Assembly (NCBI GenBank): GCA_007693455.1
Contig: REDP01000159.1
Coordinates: 1 to 34,114 of the forward strand
Length of the DNA stretch: 34,114 bases
DNA from: Planctomycetota bacterium
GTDB lineage: Bacteria > Planctomycetota > UBA11346
Direction: 5' to 3'
In this document: positions 19,022-28,234 of the stretch, in pieces
Position numbering within the stretch: the first letter of the stretch is position 1
Layout of the letters: each line of letters starts with the position of its first letter
Notes under the pieces: generated by a model
Told to the model about the DNA's origin: nothing
Databases searched by the model: none
What the model saw: the letters and a program-made list of their open reading frames with translations, nothing else
Made by a program: the position numbers and the translations under genes

Positions 19022-20647
19022 CTACGGATGATCGGCAAAAACGAGATGGTATAATGTTTGTCGCAACCGCTCTTTTTCTCTCGCGTATGCCGGATTATCC
19101 GCTTGGTTGTGCCAGGAGTGAGGGTCGTTTTTGAGATCGTACAGTTCTTCACTGCCGTCACTACAGAGCGTGTAACGGTAACGCTGGTCGCGGATAGAAT
19201 GATGCTGATCCTCTATGGGTGCAGGTTGATGGGGTTCAACGTGATGTGGCCCATGCAGCACGCTCAGGGCAACACTGGGACCATCCCATGTGGCATCCGC
19301 ATCTTCGAGGAAGGGGCGCAGGGAGTGACCATCGAGTGTTGCATCATATTCATTGGTCGGGATATGAAGCAGATCGAGTACCGTAGGGTAGATATCAATA
19401 AGGCTCACAGGGTGCGAAACGCTTGCTCCTGCACTGACTCCAGGTCCGCTGATGATCATGGGAATCCGAGTGACTTCCTCCCAAATGGTGGTCTTTTTGA
19501 GGTGATCCTTTTCTCCCAGATGGAAACCATGGTCGCTGACAATGATGACCAGGGTATTGGCGGCATGAGGGCTGTCTTCGAGGGCATCCAGGACCACGCC
19601 GATTTGCGCATCGACAAAGGCGACACAGGCAAGATAGCTGCGCACCGATCGCCGCCACCACTCTTCTCCCCCCGCAGCCAGTAACCGTGGGAGCCATTGT
19701 GCCTGCCATTGTCGCGATCCGTCCTCATTCTGCCAGAGAATGGTTGGTACATCCTTGAGATCATCCTCTTTGTAAGCAGGTAATTGCACCTCATCCAAAG
19801 GAAAGAGGTCGAAATATTCATCGGGAGCATAGCGTGGAGCATGCGGACGATTCATGCCCACGACCATAAAGAAAGGGGTGTCATGCTCGTGTTGGAGGCG
19901 CTGCGCAGCCCATTGTGCGTTCAATTCATCGGGCATGAGGTCGCGGTCTTCATTGCTGCGCCAGTGAAAAGCGCCGTCGCCCAGCACCCAGCCCGTGTAA
20001 CCGGGGCTCTCATCGGTGGCGGGAACCTGAGGGATATCAGAGAGTGGGCCGAATCCATCCCAGCGAAACCCCGCGAATTCTCCTGGCATGCGCGGATGCC
20101 CCACGCCATGCCGTCGGCCCCAACGAATGGTTGTTCCATCCCAGGGCCAGGGTCCGAAGTCTGATGGATAACCACTCCCGCTGATAACGCCCTCTGTCGA
20201 CCACACGCTGTTATCTTCATGCCCGTTATGAAATACTTTGCCTGTACCGCCGACCTGCATGCCATGGTCACGGAGTCGTTCCATTAGGGTGGGGGCGTGC
20301 GCCAAGGCGGGAAATTGCCGCCAGTGGTTGCGCTGTTGCTGATAGCCATAGTAGCCGGTGCTGATGGGATGGAGCCCCGTCCACATGCTTGCTCGCGAAG
20401 GACCACATATGGGAGCGTTGCAGTGGGCGTTGGTAAAGGTAGTGGCGCGCTGGCGTAGGCGGTCAAGATGAGGGGTTTTGGCTTGGGGATGACCGCCAAA
20501 GCCAGCAATGCTATCGTTGAGATCATCGACCACGATAACAATGACATTGCGTGGGATGTGGCGTTCGGGTTCTTGCCCAGGAAGTAAGACACAGCCCAGT
20601 CCCAGAAGGAAAACTGATAGAGCGCAGGTGAAGGGCCGCATGGTCAT
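19022..20647 (-). CDS. Secreted sulfatase (iduronate-2-sulfatase/choline-sulfatase-like)
   Basis: Signal peptide; NVIVIVVDDLND; formylglycine motif CGPSRAS in NAPICGPSRASMWTG; VIIVSDHGFHLGEKDHLKK. TAGGAG-type RBS before the ATG. Confidence 0.9.
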   Translation of the reverse strand: MTMRPFTCALSVFLLGLGCVLLPGQEPERHIPRNVIVIVVDDLNDSIAGFGGHPQAKTPHLDRLRQRATTFTNAHCNAPICGPSRASMWTGLHPISTGYYGYQQQRNHWRQFPALAHAPTLMERLRDHGMQVGGTGKVFHNGHEDNSVWSTEGVISGSGYPSDFGPWPWDGTTIRWGRRHGVGHPRMPGEFAGFRWDGFGPLSDIPQVPATDESPGYTGWVLGDGAFHWRSNEDRDLMPDELNAQWAAQRLQHEHDTPFFMVVGMNRPHAPRYAPDEYFDLFPLDEVQLPAYKEDDLKDVPTILWQNEDGSRQWQAQWLPRLLAAGGEEWWRRSVRSYLACVAFVDAQIGVVLDALEDSPHAANTLVIIVSDHGFHLGEKDHLKKTTIWEEVTRIPMIISGPGVSAGASVSHPVSLIDIYPTVLDLLHIPTNEYDATLDGHSLRPFLEDADATWDGPSVALSVLHGPHHVEPHQPAPIEDQHHSIRDQRYRYTLCSDGSEELYDLKNDPHSWHNQADNPAYAREKERLRQTLYHLVFADHP

Positions 20648-20711
20648 AATCTACTCCTAAGTGCCGACGAGCCATATCTGACCGCCCTGGCGCGAGAGGT
20701 GTCGGTACAAG

Positions 20712-22124
20712 CTATCCCTTATGGGGCAGACGCAGACTGTGCTGCAGCAGTTCGCTTCCTACAGGCACAGTAAAGGCATGGCCGCAGGTCTGTCCCTTGC
20801 CGCCTTGAGCGAGGCGGAGGCTATACTCGCCATGAAAGCCTCGGAAACGAAGCTGCCCATCGCTATCGGTGGTGGCGCTGGTGTGGGTGCGCCATTCTTC
20901 ATGCAGCAAGCGCTTGAGGTGGCCATAGAGGGGTTTGGCTTCGATGCCGCCATTGCCAAAACGCTTGAAGAGATCTTTACTCATGCCCCAGAAGAAAAAC
21001 GCTTCCACCGCCTCTGAGCCAAAAGCACAGGTGACGCAGTTGCGGACGTATTCCCATTGGCGGGCTTGGATTTCATCCTCGGGCATGCCAGCTTTTTGCA
21101 GATGGTTGGTATGCGCCCAGAATTCAGTAATGTGCACTGGCAGCCCGCAGCGTTCTTGAATCATCTCATAGGTACCCACGTCACGATCATGGTTCCCCCA
21201 GCCGCCGGTGTGTCCTTGAAGGCCCACGGCATCGGGAGCTGCGCCGCGTTGCCGTAATTCGTCCATAAGATCAAGGTAGCGCATGAACTGGCTATGCGGG
21301 GTGACTGTACTGCCATCACTGCCAGGCATGCCACAGGGTTTATGGTCATCCAGGCAGACCCCATATTCGTTAATCAAGTAGCAGGCATCAGGATCTTCTT
21401 CGCGTGCCCAACGGAGTACGGGTTCGATGTAATCGGCGATATCTTTAATCGCAGTCATATGGGGCCAATTGCGCTGGGGAAGGTCCTTGAAGGCTGGTTC
21501 CCACATGGGTTCGTTGATCGCATCGTAGATACGAATTTTTCCCTTGAAGCGATTGACAATAGAACGAATGCGTACCTCTAAAAAGGCCAGACGCGTTTCG
21601 TAGTTATCGTAGGCTTGAATCCAGTCGGGGACTGCTTTGGGTACAGTCCAAAACAGCGGGTGCCCTTTTACCGTGAGCCCTTCGCCATTGGCCCAATCGA
21701 CACACCACTGCAAATGCTCGTAGGTGGGATAGCCCAGTTGATCTTCACTTTTTGGGCCATCATTACGTGGACGTTCGGTCCAGTAGTGCAATGCGTTCAT
21801 GGCGTTGAGCAACTGACTCATCATCCGGCATTCAGTGCGCACGTCATCGTGGTTTTGCCGACCCTCGCGCACTGCCGTATCCAGACTCCAGAGATTATGG
21901 CCCCAGAGGAACGCCGATTCGGTTTGGGCAATCTCTACCTGAGTATTGGCGAGCGGCTTACCGGCGCGGTCAACCAGGCGCAAAGAGACATCCCGCTGGC
22001 GAATCTGTGGAATGCGGGCTGCCGCGCTATGGATGGTTTCGGCTTCGGCTTGCGGATTGTAGCCAGTGGTTTCGTCCATAGCTAGCCATTCTTCGCCGCC
22101 AGCGCCAATGGGTTGTGTGGTCAT
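20712..22124 (-). CDS. Glycoside hydrolase family 10 (xylanase-like), no evident signal peptide
   Basis: VKGHPLFWTVPK, RIYDAINEPMWEP (acid/base Glu), GLQGHTGGWG, HITEFWAHTN (nucleophile Glu); N-terminal accessory domain RDVSLRLVDRAGKPLANTQVEIAQTESAFLWGHNLW. Confidence 0.87.
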   Translation of the reverse strand: MTTQPIGAGGEEWLAMDETTGYNPQAEAETIHSAAARIPQIRQRDVSLRLVDRAGKPLANTQVEIAQTESAFLWGHNLWSLDTAVREGRQNHDDVRTECRMMSQLLNAMNALHYWTERPRNDGPKSEDQLGYPTYEHLQWCVDWANGEGLTVKGHPLFWTVPKAVPDWIQAYDNYETRLAFLEVRIRSIVNRFKGKIRIYDAINEPMWEPAFKDLPQRNWPHMTAIKDIADYIEPVLRWAREEDPDACYLINEYGVCLDDHKPCGMPGSDGSTVTPHSQFMRYLDLMDELRQRGAAPDAVGLQGHTGGWGNHDRDVGTYEMIQERCGLPVHITEFWAHTNHLQKAGMPEDEIQARQWEYVRNCVTCAFGSEAVEAFFFWGMSKDLFKRFGNGGIEAKPLYGHLKRLLHEEWRTHTSATTDSDGQLRFRGFHGEYSLRLAQGGKGQTCGHAFTVPVGSELLQHSLRLPHKG

Positions 22125-22162
22125 GGTTCATTCCTTATGTATAATGTATTCGTATAAGCGAT

Positions 22163-23764
22163 TTAGAGTGAGAGATAGGTAAAGGATAGGAAGTCGGCAT
22201 GGTTGCCCTGGCCACTGAGATCCTGGCAGGCAAAGCCCATCATGCCCCCAGTAAAGTGGCCATGATGGCCATATTCATCACCCAGAAAATCTCCTGGGCG
22301 GGTGGGACCAACCGGCTGCCACTCGCTATCGCAGCGGACAAAGAAGCGCAGTTCCAGGTGGCGCAGTTCGCAGGCGATGTCCACTGGTCCCTGTGCGGGG
22401 AGTATAAGCAGGTCGTCGTTGACTCCGCCAAACCCTCCATCAACGCTCCATTCCATGCGCAGAACACGTTGCCCGGTGTCATTGGCCGATACATAGCAGT
22501 AGCACCAGGAAGCGCTGTCGTAGATGGCCACCAATCCCGCCATGTGCTGGAAATCGCGCGGAGTAACATCAAGGCGTATTTCCGCGCGGGCATGGAAATC
22601 TACGAGACGCCGTGCCAGGAGTGAGGTGCGATGGCGCGAAGCAAGGCTTTCTTGGCCATAGAGACGGAGTGCTCCTGGCCGCGCAGTGAGACTGACCCAC
22701 GACTCCTCTGCGGGAATGCGCAATGACTGCAGGCAGGCTGGGATGCGCTCGGTATCGAAGCTCAGGGTAGCGGGGGTGCTGGGCTGTGGGTGGGTGGCGA
22801 GGTTTGGCGCATCCCACTCAACCCGAGGCTCTCGCCCCCCGCCAGCCAAGCGCGGCCAGCCATCAGAGCACCATTCCAGGCGTTGGGCGCAGGTTTCGCG
22901 GCCCAGGATGGATTGTCCTGCAAGAGGGCGCGATGCCAAATGAACCATCCACCATTCCCCTGTGGCCGTCTCCACCCAATCAGCGTGACCAGCGTTTTGC
23001 AGGACCAGTCCCAGGTCATGGCGACTGGTAAGGATGGGGTTGTCGGGATGGATTTCATAGGGCCCTAAAAGATCGCGCGAGCGGGCCACGGTGACGCAGT
23101 GATGCCGCGCAGTACCGCCTTCAGCGGTGAGTAAATAATACCAGCCATCCTTATGATACAGGTGGGGGCCTTCGCATACGCGGGCGCTACTCCCCTGGAA
23201 AATATTGCGAATGGGGCCAACTAAGCCCTGGCCCGCGGGGTCAAATTCTTGGATGACAATACCGGCAAAAGGGTGGCGCCCTGGGCGATGATCCCAGAGT
23301 TGATTGAGCACCCATTTGCGCCCATCCAGATCATGGAACAGTGAGGGATCAAATCCTGAAGCATTGAGATAGATTGGGTCAGACCAGGCACCAGCTTCGA
23401 TATCATCGCAGGTTACCACAAAGTTATGGACGTCTTTATATCCCTGCTGCCACGTTTTCGTGTCGGAATACACCAGCCAAAACGAGCCATCGGCATAGCT
23501 CAGACAGGGGGCCCATACCCCACCGGAATCGGGATTGCCCAGCATATTAATCTGTTCTCGCCGCGTCAGGGCAGGACCAATGAGGCGCCAGTGACGCAGA
23601 TCACGAGAGTGATAGATCATCACCCCGCCAAACCACTCGAAGGTGGATGTGGCGATATAGTAATCATCAATAGTTTGGCCTGTGTCGGCACAGGTACGAG
23701 GTACGCGGCAGATAGAGGGGTCTGGGTTAAACCCAGGCAGGATGGGATTGGTGAGTGTGGTCAT
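22163..23764 (-). CDS. Glycoside hydrolase family 43 (beta-xylosidase/arabinofuranosidase-like) with C-terminal concanavalin-like domain
   Basis: NPILPGFNPDPSICR, ASGFDPSLFHDLDGRKWVLN, VCEGPHLYHKDGWYYLL, GEWWMVHLASRPL; C-terminal FHARAEIRLDVTPRDFQHMAGLVAIYD. Confidence 0.88.
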   Translation of the reverse strand: MTTLTNPILPGFNPDPSICRVPRTCADTGQTIDDYYIATSTFEWFGGVMIYHSRDLRHWRLIGPALTRREQINMLGNPDSGGVWAPCLSYADGSFWLVYSDTKTWQQGYKDVHNFVVTCDDIEAGAWSDPIYLNASGFDPSLFHDLDGRKWVLNQLWDHRPGRHPFAGIVIQEFDPAGQGLVGPIRNIFQGSSARVCEGPHLYHKDGWYYLLTAEGGTARHHCVTVARSRDLLGPYEIHPDNPILTSRHDLGLVLQNAGHADWVETATGEWWMVHLASRPLAGQSILGRETCAQRLEWCSDGWPRLAGGGREPRVEWDAPNLATHPQPSTPATLSFDTERIPACLQSLRIPAEESWVSLTARPGALRLYGQESLASRHRTSLLARRLVDFHARAEIRLDVTPRDFQHMAGLVAIYDSASWCYCYVSANDTGQRVLRMEWSVDGGFGGVNDDLLILPAQGPVDIACELRHLELRFFVRCDSEWQPVGPTRPGDFLGDEYGHHGHFTGGMMGFACQDLSGQGNHADFLSFTYLSL

Positions 23765-23891: not shown

Positions 23892-23909
23892 ATGATATCT
23901 TGATATCAT
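23892..23909. promoter_or_regulatory. Candidate operator: perfect 8-bp inverted repeat
   Basis: ATGATATC-TT-GATATCAT in the divergent intergenic region between GH43 and the DUF1989 operon. Confidence 0.4.
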
Positions 23910-23994: not shown

Positions 23995-24744
23995 ATGAGC
24001 ACTGAGGAAGACTCGCAGGGACGTCTGCTGTTTTCGGAATCCATACCGGGTGGCGCTGGTTGGTCCTGGGTGTTGCAGCGCGGGCAGCGCCTGCGCATTA
24101 CCGATGTCGATGGGGGAGCGAATGTGCCCCTTATGGCATTTAACGCCGCGCAGCCTCTGGAGCGCTACAATATGCCCGACACCCTCAAAGGCCAGCACAC
24201 GGCATACCTTACCACAGGTAATGTTGCCTATTCGGATATGGGCCGCTGTCTGTTGTCCTTCGTCGATGATAGCGTTGGCTGGCACGACACCATTACAGGG
24301 TATAGCGATAGCGCTGCAGTAGCGGCCAAATATGGTAATCGGAGCTATCAGCAGGCACGCAATAAGTTTTACCGCAGCGCCAAGGAATTACTGCTTATTG
24401 AATTGGGCAAGCACGGACTGGGCAAGCGTGATGTCACCGCGAGCATCAATTGCTTGAGTAAAGTCGCGGCTAATGAGCGGGGGCAACTGAGCTATGTCGA
24501 GGGGCATTCGATCCCTGGATCGCATCTTACTTTGCGCGCCGACATGACGGTCTTGGTGGTATTATGTGCCATTCAGCACCCCCTGGATCCCGATCCCGAG
24601 TACCGCCCCCGCCGTATCGCCCTTGATGTGTATGCTGGATCTGCCGCCGCGTCAGATGACATATGTCGGACGCATTGTGAGCAAAACGCTCGTGCTTTCA
24701 CCCTTACCGACCGACTCTTTGCCCCAGAAGGAGTTCTTGTATGA
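23995..24744 (+). CDS. Urea carboxylase-associated protein 1 (DUF1989; carboxyguanidine deiminase subunit-like)
   Basis: [94 protein letters not shown] before ATG. Confidence 0.88.
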
Positions 24745-25391
24745 CTACTGTCACTGAATCGCCGCGACAATTGTCCGATGCCTGCTATGATTTCTGTATG
24801 GAATCAGGAACGGGCTGGATGTACGCTCTGCAGCCTGGGCAGGTATTGCGCATCATTGACTGTGAAGGCAATCAAGCAGTCGACACCATTTTCTATGCAA
24901 CCGAATGTATTGAAGAGCGTTATTCCGCTACGGATACTATTCAGCGTCAAGGCTCGCTCTATCTTACCACAGGCTCGCAGCTCATCAGTACCGAGGGTCG
25001 AGTCATGCTCACCATTGTGGCTGACACCTGTGGTCGCCATGATACCCTGGGTGGGGCCTGTGCTGCGGAGAGTAATCAGGTGCGCTATAGCCTTGATAAG
25101 CGTTGGATGCATAATTGCCGCGACACCTATCTTTATACTTTGGCAACGCACCCTCTTGGCGCAGGGCGTGGCAAACGCGACCTTTGCCATAATGTTAATT
25201 TCTTTATGAATGTGCCGGTGAGTCCCGATGGGCATCTCTCCTTTGAGGATGGTATTTCTGGGCCAAATCGCTACGTAGAGATGCGTGCAGAGATGCCAGT
25301 GACAGTATTGATTAGCAACTGCCCACAGCTCAATAATCCCTGTAACGCCTACAATCCTACTCCCGCGCGCCTGGTGGTATGGGATGACTGA
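24741..25391 (+). CDS. Urea carboxylase-associated protein 2 (DUF1989; carboxyguanidine deiminase subunit-like)
   Basis: [89 protein letters not shown] overlap with the upstream gene. Confidence 0.9.
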
Positions 25392-28059
25392 GGCGGCAGT
25401 CCAGTCGAGACGATTGCCGCCGCGTCATGCCTTGCGGGCATTGGCCCAGCGCATGCGGATTCCTATGGGTCCGCGGAGTGCTGGTGCGCGAATTGTCGAA
25501 TGCGGCTTTGATCGCGAGGGGCGTTGGCGGAGTCGTGATGTGACGATTTGCCATGGCGCAACGGTGCTTCTGGCAGAATCACCTGCGCCGGCTTTGTCGG
25601 CAGGGCTCATTGCTGAACTGAGTCATGCTACGCGCAGTATCATATCGGCTGATGAAGTCTCGGGACATCAGGCGGTGGTCGTATTCGCCCTTACTGGGTC
25701 GAGTAATTGGCATCTTTTGCATGTGAGTATTGATCACGATCAGTGGTGGGCCAGTCATGGCTCATGTGCAATGCGCTTGGCTGTACGCTGCTGGCGTCCG
25801 CAGGGTTTGCCCGCTGATGCCGAAGATGATCCGTTGACTGCAATCAATGGTATTGATCCTAAACACTGTCGTGTGCATGTTGGTGACCGGCCAGGTGCGG
25901 GTACAGTTGTTGCCCAGCTTGAGACTGTCGGCAGCCAGCGCAGCGAGGCTCTCGCTGGCATGCGCGAACGCTTGGGTCTCCTGCTCTTAGGTGGCATTTC
26001 CCATGATGCCCGTGCGTGGTGTGAGCAACTGTGTGGTGAAGCCGCCAGGAGCGGTCAATGGCATCCGGGGCAGGCAGTGCTTCGCCAGTTCACCTCTGGC
26101 ACTTGTCATGTTGAACATCCTGGCATGGAAACCACGGTTCAGGATTGGCCTGGTCGGCAGGGGGCCTGGGAAGTGGGAGTGCCGCCCAGTGGTCCCATGG
26201 ATGACCGCAACTTTCGCTTGGCAAATCGGGCGGTGGGCAATGACCCAGGCGCTCCAGCTTTGGAAGCTTTGCTGCGGGGGCCAACCCTGCGCTTTGCCGA
26301 TCCTACGGTGGTAGCGGTTACTGGGGCACCAGTGGAGGTGTTGGTAGATGGTGTTGCGCACACAATGTTTGCGCCCATTACCGTGCCCGCAGGAAGTACA
26401 CTTGTGGTGGGGGCTGTACGCGAGCGTGGTTTGCGGGTCTATATTGCCATACGTGGGGGAATCGATGTGCCGCGCTACTTGGGGAGTGCAGCGACCTTTA
26501 CCCTCGGTGGTTTTGGTGGGCATGCTGGTAGGCCCTTGGTCTGTGGCGATGTGCTGGCAGTGGGTGCCGACACGGCGGCAGCACCAGAAGCCATTGCTCC
26601 ACGAGAGCAGCCCCGCTGTCAGCAGCACTGGCACATCGGTATTACGCTTGGCCCGCATGCGGCGCCGGAATTTCTTACTCCAGCGGGCTTGGAGCAGTTC
26701 CTTGACGCGCGGTGGCGTGTGTCTCCGCGATCGAATCGCACCGGCATTCGCTTGGATGGTCCCAAGCCGCAGTGGGCACGAGAAGATGGTGGAGAGGCAG
26801 GCCTGCATCCCTCCAACATTCATGATAATGGTTATGCCATTGGCGCTGTGGATTTCACGGGCGATACTCCAGTGGTGCTTGGGCCTGATGGCCCCAGCTG
26901 TGGTGGCTTTGTATGTCCCGTGGTGGTGCCATCGGGGGAGCGCTGGAAACTGGGGCAGCTACGCCCCGGAGATACCGTGCAGTGGCAGGTTATCGACGCC
27001 GATCAGGCGGTGGCAGTGCGCCGCCAACCAGGCCTGGCATTGCGCCCCCAGCGCCCCTATCCCAGTGCCATAGCCCATCAACGCCCAGCCAGTCCCGACC
27101 ACCCAGGCTTGTGTATGCGCGTAGTCGGGGATGGCTACTGCTTGCTAGAATATGGCCCAGCCGAGTTGGATATTGCTCTGCGCCTGCGCGTACATCTCCT
27201 CGACCAATATCTCCGCCAAGCCGCAATCAGTGGTATCATTGATCTGGTCCCAGGTATTCGCTCCTTATTGGTGCACGTGGATCCAGATGTGCTTTCATTG
27301 CCGGCCGTGCACCGGCTCTTATTAGACGCCGATGAGCGCCTTGATCCCGAGCAAGCCCGTGTGCCCACACGTCGCTTACGCTTACCCCTGAGTTGGGACG
27401 ATCCAAGCACGCGCACTGCGAGTGAACTCTATCAGCGCACAGTGAACCCCGATGCGCCATGGTGTCCGTGGAATATTGAATTTATTCGCCGTATTAACGG
27501 CCTATCCAGTGTTGATGAGGTATTTGACATTGTTTTTGGCGCAGAATATTTAGTGATGGGTCTGGGGGATGTGTACCTGGGAGCCCCGGTTTCCACGCCT
27601 ATCGACCCACGTCATCGCCTCGTAACCACCAAGTACAACCCCGCTCGCACGTGGACTCCCGAAAATGCGGTGGGAATTGGTGGGGCGTATATGTGTATTT
27701 ATGGGATGGAAGGCCCTGGTGGCTATCAGTTCGTGGGGCGAACGGTTCCAGTGTGGAATACCTGGCGGAGTACGCCTTGCTTCGAGCCCGGCACGCCGTG
27801 GCTTTTGCGCCAATTTGATACCATCAGCTGGTATTCGGTGGGCCATGAAGAGCTACTGGATTTACGTAGCGATATGCGCTCGGGGCGTTTTGTCCCAGAC
27901 ATCCAAACAGGTAGCTTTGATTTGTCTGAGCACCTGGCGTTCTGTGAACAGCATGCTGACTCGATCACCGCTGCTCGCCAGCGTCAAACCCAGGCCTTTA
28001 GCGCCGAACGCCAGCGCTGGGCACAGGCCGCACAGGCATCCTCGGTGAACCAAAGGTGA
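25384..28059 (+). CDS. Urea/guanidine carboxylase-like protein: degenerate biotin-carboxylase remnant plus AHS2/AHS1 (KipA/KipI-like) carboxyltransferase region, lacking a BCCP domain
   Basis: AHS2: [59 protein letters not shown]1: [88 protein letters not shown]. Protein ends [21 protein letters not shown] with no AMKM biotinyl motif. Confidence 0.85.
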
Positions 28060-28147: not shown

Positions 28148-28234
28148 GCCGGGGTGGCGGAATGGCAGACGCGGGGGACTTAAAATCCCCTGACCGAAAA
28201 GGTCGTGCGGGTTCGAGTCCCGCTCCCGGTACCA
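28148..28234 (+). tRNA. tRNA-Leu (anticodon UAA), CCA encoded
   Basis: GCCGGGG...TCCCGGT acceptor stem + ACCA; anticodon arm GGGGA-CTTAAAA-TCCCC; long variable arm TGACCGAAAAGGTCG; T arm GCGGG-TTCGAGT-CCCGC. Confidence 0.95.

Follow-up and report, generated by a model that had tools for sequence, protein, structure and literature searches.

The window, a 34,114-nucleotide stretch of DNA from a Planctomycetota genome (G000), contains an operon of two carboxyguanidine deiminase-type genes, UCA1 and UCA2, and a gene for an 891-aa carboxyltransferase (CT). Because this protein fails to show two defining features, a working biotin carboxylase (BC) and a biotin-carrier (BCCP) domain, it was not classed as a full-length guanidine carboxylase, and it most likely works as the carboxyltransferase subunit of a split enzyme. 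We assign a probability of about 0.57 to a split guanidine carboxylase in which the CT is charged in trans by AccC and AccB of acetyl-CoA carboxylase. Since the CT is apparently intact and its own ATP and biotin parts are lost, it is probable that activated CO2 is borrowed from the fatty-acid enzyme.

Under this model, AccC would carboxylate the biotin on AccB, these two being the BC and BCCP of acetyl-CoA carboxylase, and the 891-aa CT would take the carboxyl group from AccB, making carboxyguanidine from guanidine. UCA1 and UCA2 (CgdAB type) would deiminate carboxyguanidine to allophanate, which an allophanate hydrolase encoded on a separate contig (C131) would convert to ammonia and CO2. A guanidine pathway with a carboxyguanidine deiminase has been described (PMC11410670, PMC12186494). 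In our case, we infer both the CT activity and the carboxyl transfer from AccB. Support for the split enzyme comes from the loss of domains, which is shared by several genera and arose separately in Mycobacteriales. Counting against it, the window has neither a guanidine riboswitch nor an adjacent allophanate hydrolase, R688 and other CT residues are changed, and, to our knowledge, all known urea and guanidine carboxylases carry their domains in cis.

Organization of the locus

A preliminary description of this DNA reported three overlapping genes followed by a tRNA gene. All three open reading frames (ORFs; positions 23995 to 28059) are intact, with the boundaries it gave, and the tRNA is a tRNA-Leu (Table 1). 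The overlaps are 4 nt between UCA1 and UCA2 and 8 nt between UCA2 and the CT gene. A sulfatase-like gene and two glycoside-hydrolase-like genes, so called from their sequences only, adjoin the operon on the minus strand (19022-23764); a link between them and guanidine is not apparent from sequence.

TABLE 1 Features of the UCA1-UCA2-CT locus in the window
Feature	Position	Strand	Evidence
Inverted repeat ATGATATCTTGATATCAT, near-perfect, 5' of UCA1; possible transcription-factor operator	23892..23909	.	Shuffles, sister genome
UCA1/UAAP1 (DUF1989), carboxyguanidine deiminase-type subunit	23995..24744	+	TIGR03425, PF09347
UCA2/UAAP2 (DUF1989), carboxyguanidine deiminase-type subunit	24741..25391	+	TIGR03424
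Guanidine-carboxylase-type CT, 891 aa, without working BC and without BCCP	25384..28059	+	Pfam, NCBIfam, alignment
C-terminal half-BC, predicted to be folded, catalytically empty, residues 32-229	25477..26070	+	hhalign, AlphaFold
CT_A_B (AHS2) domain, residues 264-535, with Asp490 (26851-26853)	26173..26988	+	Pfam E 8.7e-90
CT_C_D (AHS1) domain, residues 578-800, with Asp729 and Lys750	27115..27783	+	Pfam E 9.7e-40
tRNA-Leu, 3' of CT gene	28148-28234		

UCA1 scored 297 bits against the NCBIfam model UAAP1 (TIGR03425; cut-off, 206) and matched PF09347 with an E value of 3.6e-56, and UCA2 scored 307 bits against UAAP2 (TIGR03424; cut-off, 285). We take these two families to be the subunits of the carboxyguanidine deiminase CgdAB. 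Among the residues that are invariant in full-length operons, UCA1 retains 11/11 and UCA2 retains 52/56. With both cut-offs exceeded and the invariant residues mostly kept, the earlier reading of an intact, CgdAB-like DUF1989 pair holds.

The N terminus resembles half of a biotin carboxylase

Pfam matched the 891-aa ORF only to CT_A_B and CT_C_D; even at E<=10, it gave no match to a BC, ATP-grasp, or biotinyl domain. Against the full-length urea_carbox model (TIGR02712), the protein scored 924 bits, where the cut-off is 1304. These results agree with the preliminary description, which had the AHS2+AHS1 region complete and the BCCP absent: both CT domains were matched, the protein ends before the biotinyl domain, and the intact ATP-grasp or biotinyl domain that would contradict that description was looked for and not found. 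All complete truncated relatives likewise stop short of the biotinyl domain.

Single-sequence searches with residues 1-240 of the window protein were uninformative, and the N termini of the family matched Biotin_carb_C weakly (best E, 7.8e-5). With a profile built from seven family N termini, hhalign aligned window residues 32-229 to BC residues 202-437 of 458 of full-length enzymes (probability, 98.4; E, 8e-15). Thus, as had been proposed, only the second half of a BC aligns. The N-terminal ~200 BC residues are missing, including much of the ATP-grasp, and E276, E288, N290, R292, and E296, the BC catalytic positions (E. coli AccC numbering), are kept as a set in no truncated member. AlphaFold modeled the isolated window N terminus (residues 1-243) with a pLDDT of 89 and a pTM of 0.85, and all of the top 50 PDB matches to the model (50/50) were structures containing a biotin carboxylase; this fold is not independent of the BC homology, since the input alignment included true BC rows. 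Alignment and model together indicate that the N terminus is a half-BC, predicted to fold and to be incapable of the BC reaction. We suggest that it helps folding or docking; the Mycobacteriales proteins described below manage without it.

Between the window and its same-genus sister, G001, pN/pS was 0.46/0.78 for the N terminus and 0.22/0.71 for the CT, a comparison that is only rough because synonymous sites are close to saturation. By this rough estimate, the half-BC is under weaker constraint than the CT and yet is not neutral.

The CT retains the residues of guanidine carboxylases

The closest solved structures by sequence were those of K. lactis urea carboxylase and urea amidolyase; the alignment to them begins at residue 242 (or 234). 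In guanidine carboxylases, the residues at K. lactis positions 1330 and 1584 are both Asp (PMC11410670), and the CT general base is Lys1605 in the same numbering (PMC5770610). In the window CT, the corresponding residues are D490, at the position that distinguishes guanidine from urea carboxylases, D729, and K750; the last two positions are invariant in alignment A1. Asp occupies both guanidine positions in the truncated relatives, except G002, and in all 11 Mycobacteriales proteins. In the truncated CT of G002 (L108 8074-10713, contig C27), the guanidine-signature site is occupied by Asn, as in urea-type enzymes, and 22/205 of the invariant residues are changed, despite guanidine-II riboswitches at UCA genes elsewhere in that genome.

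Of 205 residues that are invariant among 20 full-length enzymes, the window CT retains 193, the truncated CTs overall 183-204, and the Mycobacteriales proteins 201-204, while the Pxp-type homologs of the window genome retain only 56. Given this difference, carboxybiotin-using chemistry apparently is still selected. The window and G001 CTs each have 12 otherwise invariant residues changed, including R688, which is altered in 5/6 truncated proteins.

These changes, together with the complete loss of the BC active site and the overlap of the CT gene with UCA2, would also fit a non-catalytic or changed role, in which the CT binds guanidine or carboxyguanidine as a partner of the deiminase pair or serves as its scaffold. 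We consider such a role rather unlikely: conservation extends to the general base and the two substrate Asp residues, constraint is far stronger on the CT than on the half-BC (the pN values given above), and without a carboxylase the deiminase has no known source of carboxyguanidine.

With regard to substrate, the preliminary description had left urea-, guanidine-, and lactam-like compounds open. Asp490 and the guanidine-II riboswitches of relatives favor guanidine and disfavor urea. A lactam, 5-oxoproline, was rejected, since 5-oxoprolinase is encoded separately in the window genome, by PxpB-PxpA-PxpC genes (L206 6287-8498, contig C65). There, PxpA (LamB/YcsF) adjoins PxpB and PxpC; no PxpA lies within the window operon.

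Distribution of the truncated form

Among 23 genomes of the bacterial family to which the window genome belongs, 8 encode a urea carboxylase (UC)-type CT. Complete truncated CT genes are present in six genomes of five genera (the window genome, G001, G016, G003, G005, and G002). A seventh CT, in G021, has a short N terminus and is interrupted by a contig end, and G008 is the sole full-length member, with LEVNCRLQVEH and AMKM motifs intact. A sample of 392 genomes from the phylum yielded two other strong matches outside the family, with long open frames of 1209 and 1116 aa. A single origin of the truncation in the family is possible; an AU test did not reject it (p, 0.177).

A sequencing artifact or frameshift was ruled out, as the same truncation is found in G001 and five further genomes; being common to the sister and other genera, it is not an assembly artifact. 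Full-length homologs in sister genomes had been named as evidence against the truncated reading. Within the family, G008 does encode one full-length homolog, but truncation is seen in the sister and in five further genomes.

A second, shorter form was found at 11 loci in Rhodococcus, Mycobacterium, and relatives (L029, L035, L052, L058, L071, L081, L088, L091, L093, L095, and L098), where UCA1 and UCA2 are followed by a CT of ~660 aa that has no half-BC. No BC or BCCP was found near these 11 CTs in the flanking DNA covered, which in most cases was 7 kb. The Mycobacteriales clade (support for the clade itself, 100/96) nests among full-length actinobacterial enzymes, apart from the window family; this placement implies at least two losses of the biotin machinery. 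A full-length enzyme was also found in 5/11 of these genomes and was not found in the other 6/11; in Rhodococcus erythropolis, none was found. MSMEG_2187, a nitrogen-stress gene of M. smegmatis annotated as urea amidolyase (PMC3662644), may belong with these BC-less CTs.

AccC and AccB are the probable donors of activated CO2

At the 17 complete truncated loci, no BC or BCCP was found in cis or nearby. A BC query returned exactly one real BC, AccC, in each of the seven truncated-CT genomes; other weak matches resembled carbamoyl-phosphate synthase and other ATP-grasp proteins. An AccB-like biotinyl domain adjoins AccC in nearly every one of these genomes, and the G001 contig begins inside AccC. 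With no dedicated partner in sight, AccC and AccB are the obvious donors. Use of this pair in trans had been raised in the preliminary description; the two are the only BC partner pair that we found, and from this we infer the charging.

Dedicated BC and BCCP subunits might nevertheless exist, either absent from the assemblies or too diverged to detect. The genomes are drafts (86-94% complete, up to 550 contigs), and each encodes several biotinyl/lipoyl-domain proteins besides AccB, identified in part. However, only AccC appears in the seven truncated-CT genomes, four CT-less relatives (G009, G006, G015, and G004) have the same BC set, and no riboswitch-linked BC was seen, all of which makes dedicated subunits very unlikely.

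A possible precedent for a CT charged by acyl-CoA carboxylase subunits is PDB entry 9YX5, known here by chain composition alone, in which AccA3, AccD4, and AccD5 occur with CT subunits of the AHS2/AHS1 type. This composition is suggestive, but the CT pair is of the distant Pxp type and the contact could be regulatory or incidental. In the openly accessible literature, we found no paper on a BC-less urea or guanidine carboxylase or on 9YX5.

A biotin-independent CT, with guanidine carboxylated or otherwise activated without biotin, for example, by an ATP- or carboxyphosphate-dependent route, is also consistent with the 17 loci lacking BC and BCCP and with the independent loss of biotin machinery in two lineages. 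PxpB and PxpC, the CT homologs of 5-oxoprolinase, act with ATP and without biotin. The CT nonetheless stays UC-like rather than Pxp-like in its invariant residues, and a search for a new ATP-binding domain found none. This option, which the preliminary description had proposed, is thus possible but unlikely, and less likely than borrowing of the BC and BCCP of acetyl-CoA carboxylase. A variant in which guanidine carboxylation is biotin-free and the half-BC is now a regulatory or substrate-delivery domain seems quite unlikely; if true, a biotin-free carboxylase would have descended from a biotin enzyme, and would have evolved at least twice.

Riboswitches, palindromes, and allophanate hydrolase

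Guanidine-II riboswitches were found at the UCA operons of G016, G003, G005, G021, and the full-length G008, and several of those in the family also adjoin divergent ABC-importer genes. In G002, they are located on a contig other than that of the CT, flanking UCA genes and an ABC transporter. Among 13 genomes compared, both guanidine-II riboswitches and an allophanate hydrolase above the cut-off occurred only in CT-bearing genomes. No guanidine riboswitch was found 5' of the window operon at E<=5, no guanidine-II riboswitch was found in G000 or G001, and none was found in nine Mycobacteriales loci at the gathering threshold.

The ATGATATCTTGATATCAT repeat (0 expected in shuffles) is the only perfect match in the window genome. 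It is kept just 5' of UCA1 in G001 with 1 mismatch (L103 1909-1926) and was not found 5' of the allophanate hydrolase gene. It is perhaps a candidate operator that replaced the guanidine-II riboswitch in G000 and G001.

The preliminary description saw no allophanate hydrolase. This is correct for the neighborhood of the operon but not for the genome, which encodes one above the cut-off on contig C131, beside a GntR-type regulator gene; in G001, the gene lies directly 3' of the CT. A perfect palindrome, ATCTTGTATACAAGAT (L204 5068-5083, contig C131), is located 5' of the allophanate hydrolase gene, and the GntR-type gene follows. This arrangement looks like a putative autoregulated GntR operon.

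The missing riboswitch in the window genome and its sister and, in the window, the missing adjacent hydrolase could mean that the pathway is being lost and that the window operon is a non-functional relic. All ORFs are open, however, the CT is under purifying selection, the invariant residues of UCA1 and UCA2 are largely retained, and the same protein shape occurs in other genera. The hydrolase found elsewhere in the genome and the palindrome conserved in the sister also argue against decay, which is highly improbable and the least favored of the alternatives.

Comparison with known systems

The UCA pair has no obvious difference in sequence from CgdAB (UAAP1/UAAP2): both subunits are present, above the cut-offs, and in operon order. 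The CT shares with full-length guanidine and urea carboxylases (TIGR02712; K. lactis 3VA7) the AHS2-AHS1 order, the guanidine Asp, Asp1584, Lys1605, and the UCA1/UCA2 neighbors, but it is without the N-terminal 200 BC residues and BCCP, and its BC remainder is catalytically empty. The PxpB/PxpC (KipI/KipA) proteins of 5-oxoprolinase are homologous CT halves that also have no BC or BCCP; however, they are two polypeptides that work with PxpA, whereas the window CT is a single chain.

In 2011, Lombard and Moreira (PMC3199775) raised the question of whether carboxyltransferases of the urea type work together with other BCs or serve another reaction. With the CT tied to guanidine by its residues and, among relatives, by riboswitches, and the genome offering only AccC and AccB, this question is now testable with a few purified proteins. 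If trans charging is true, guanidine breakdown draws activated CO2 from the fatty-acid enzyme, and annotation that demands a full-length carboxylase misses organisms that use guanidine, Rhodococcus and mycobacteria among them. The arrangement would differ from that of the acyl-CoA carboxylases, in that the AccD-type CT belongs to another fold family and AccC and AccB of the window genome are separate chains, but it would resemble that of mycobacterial AccA3 with its several AccD proteins, where one charged biotin subunit serves several carboxyltransferases.
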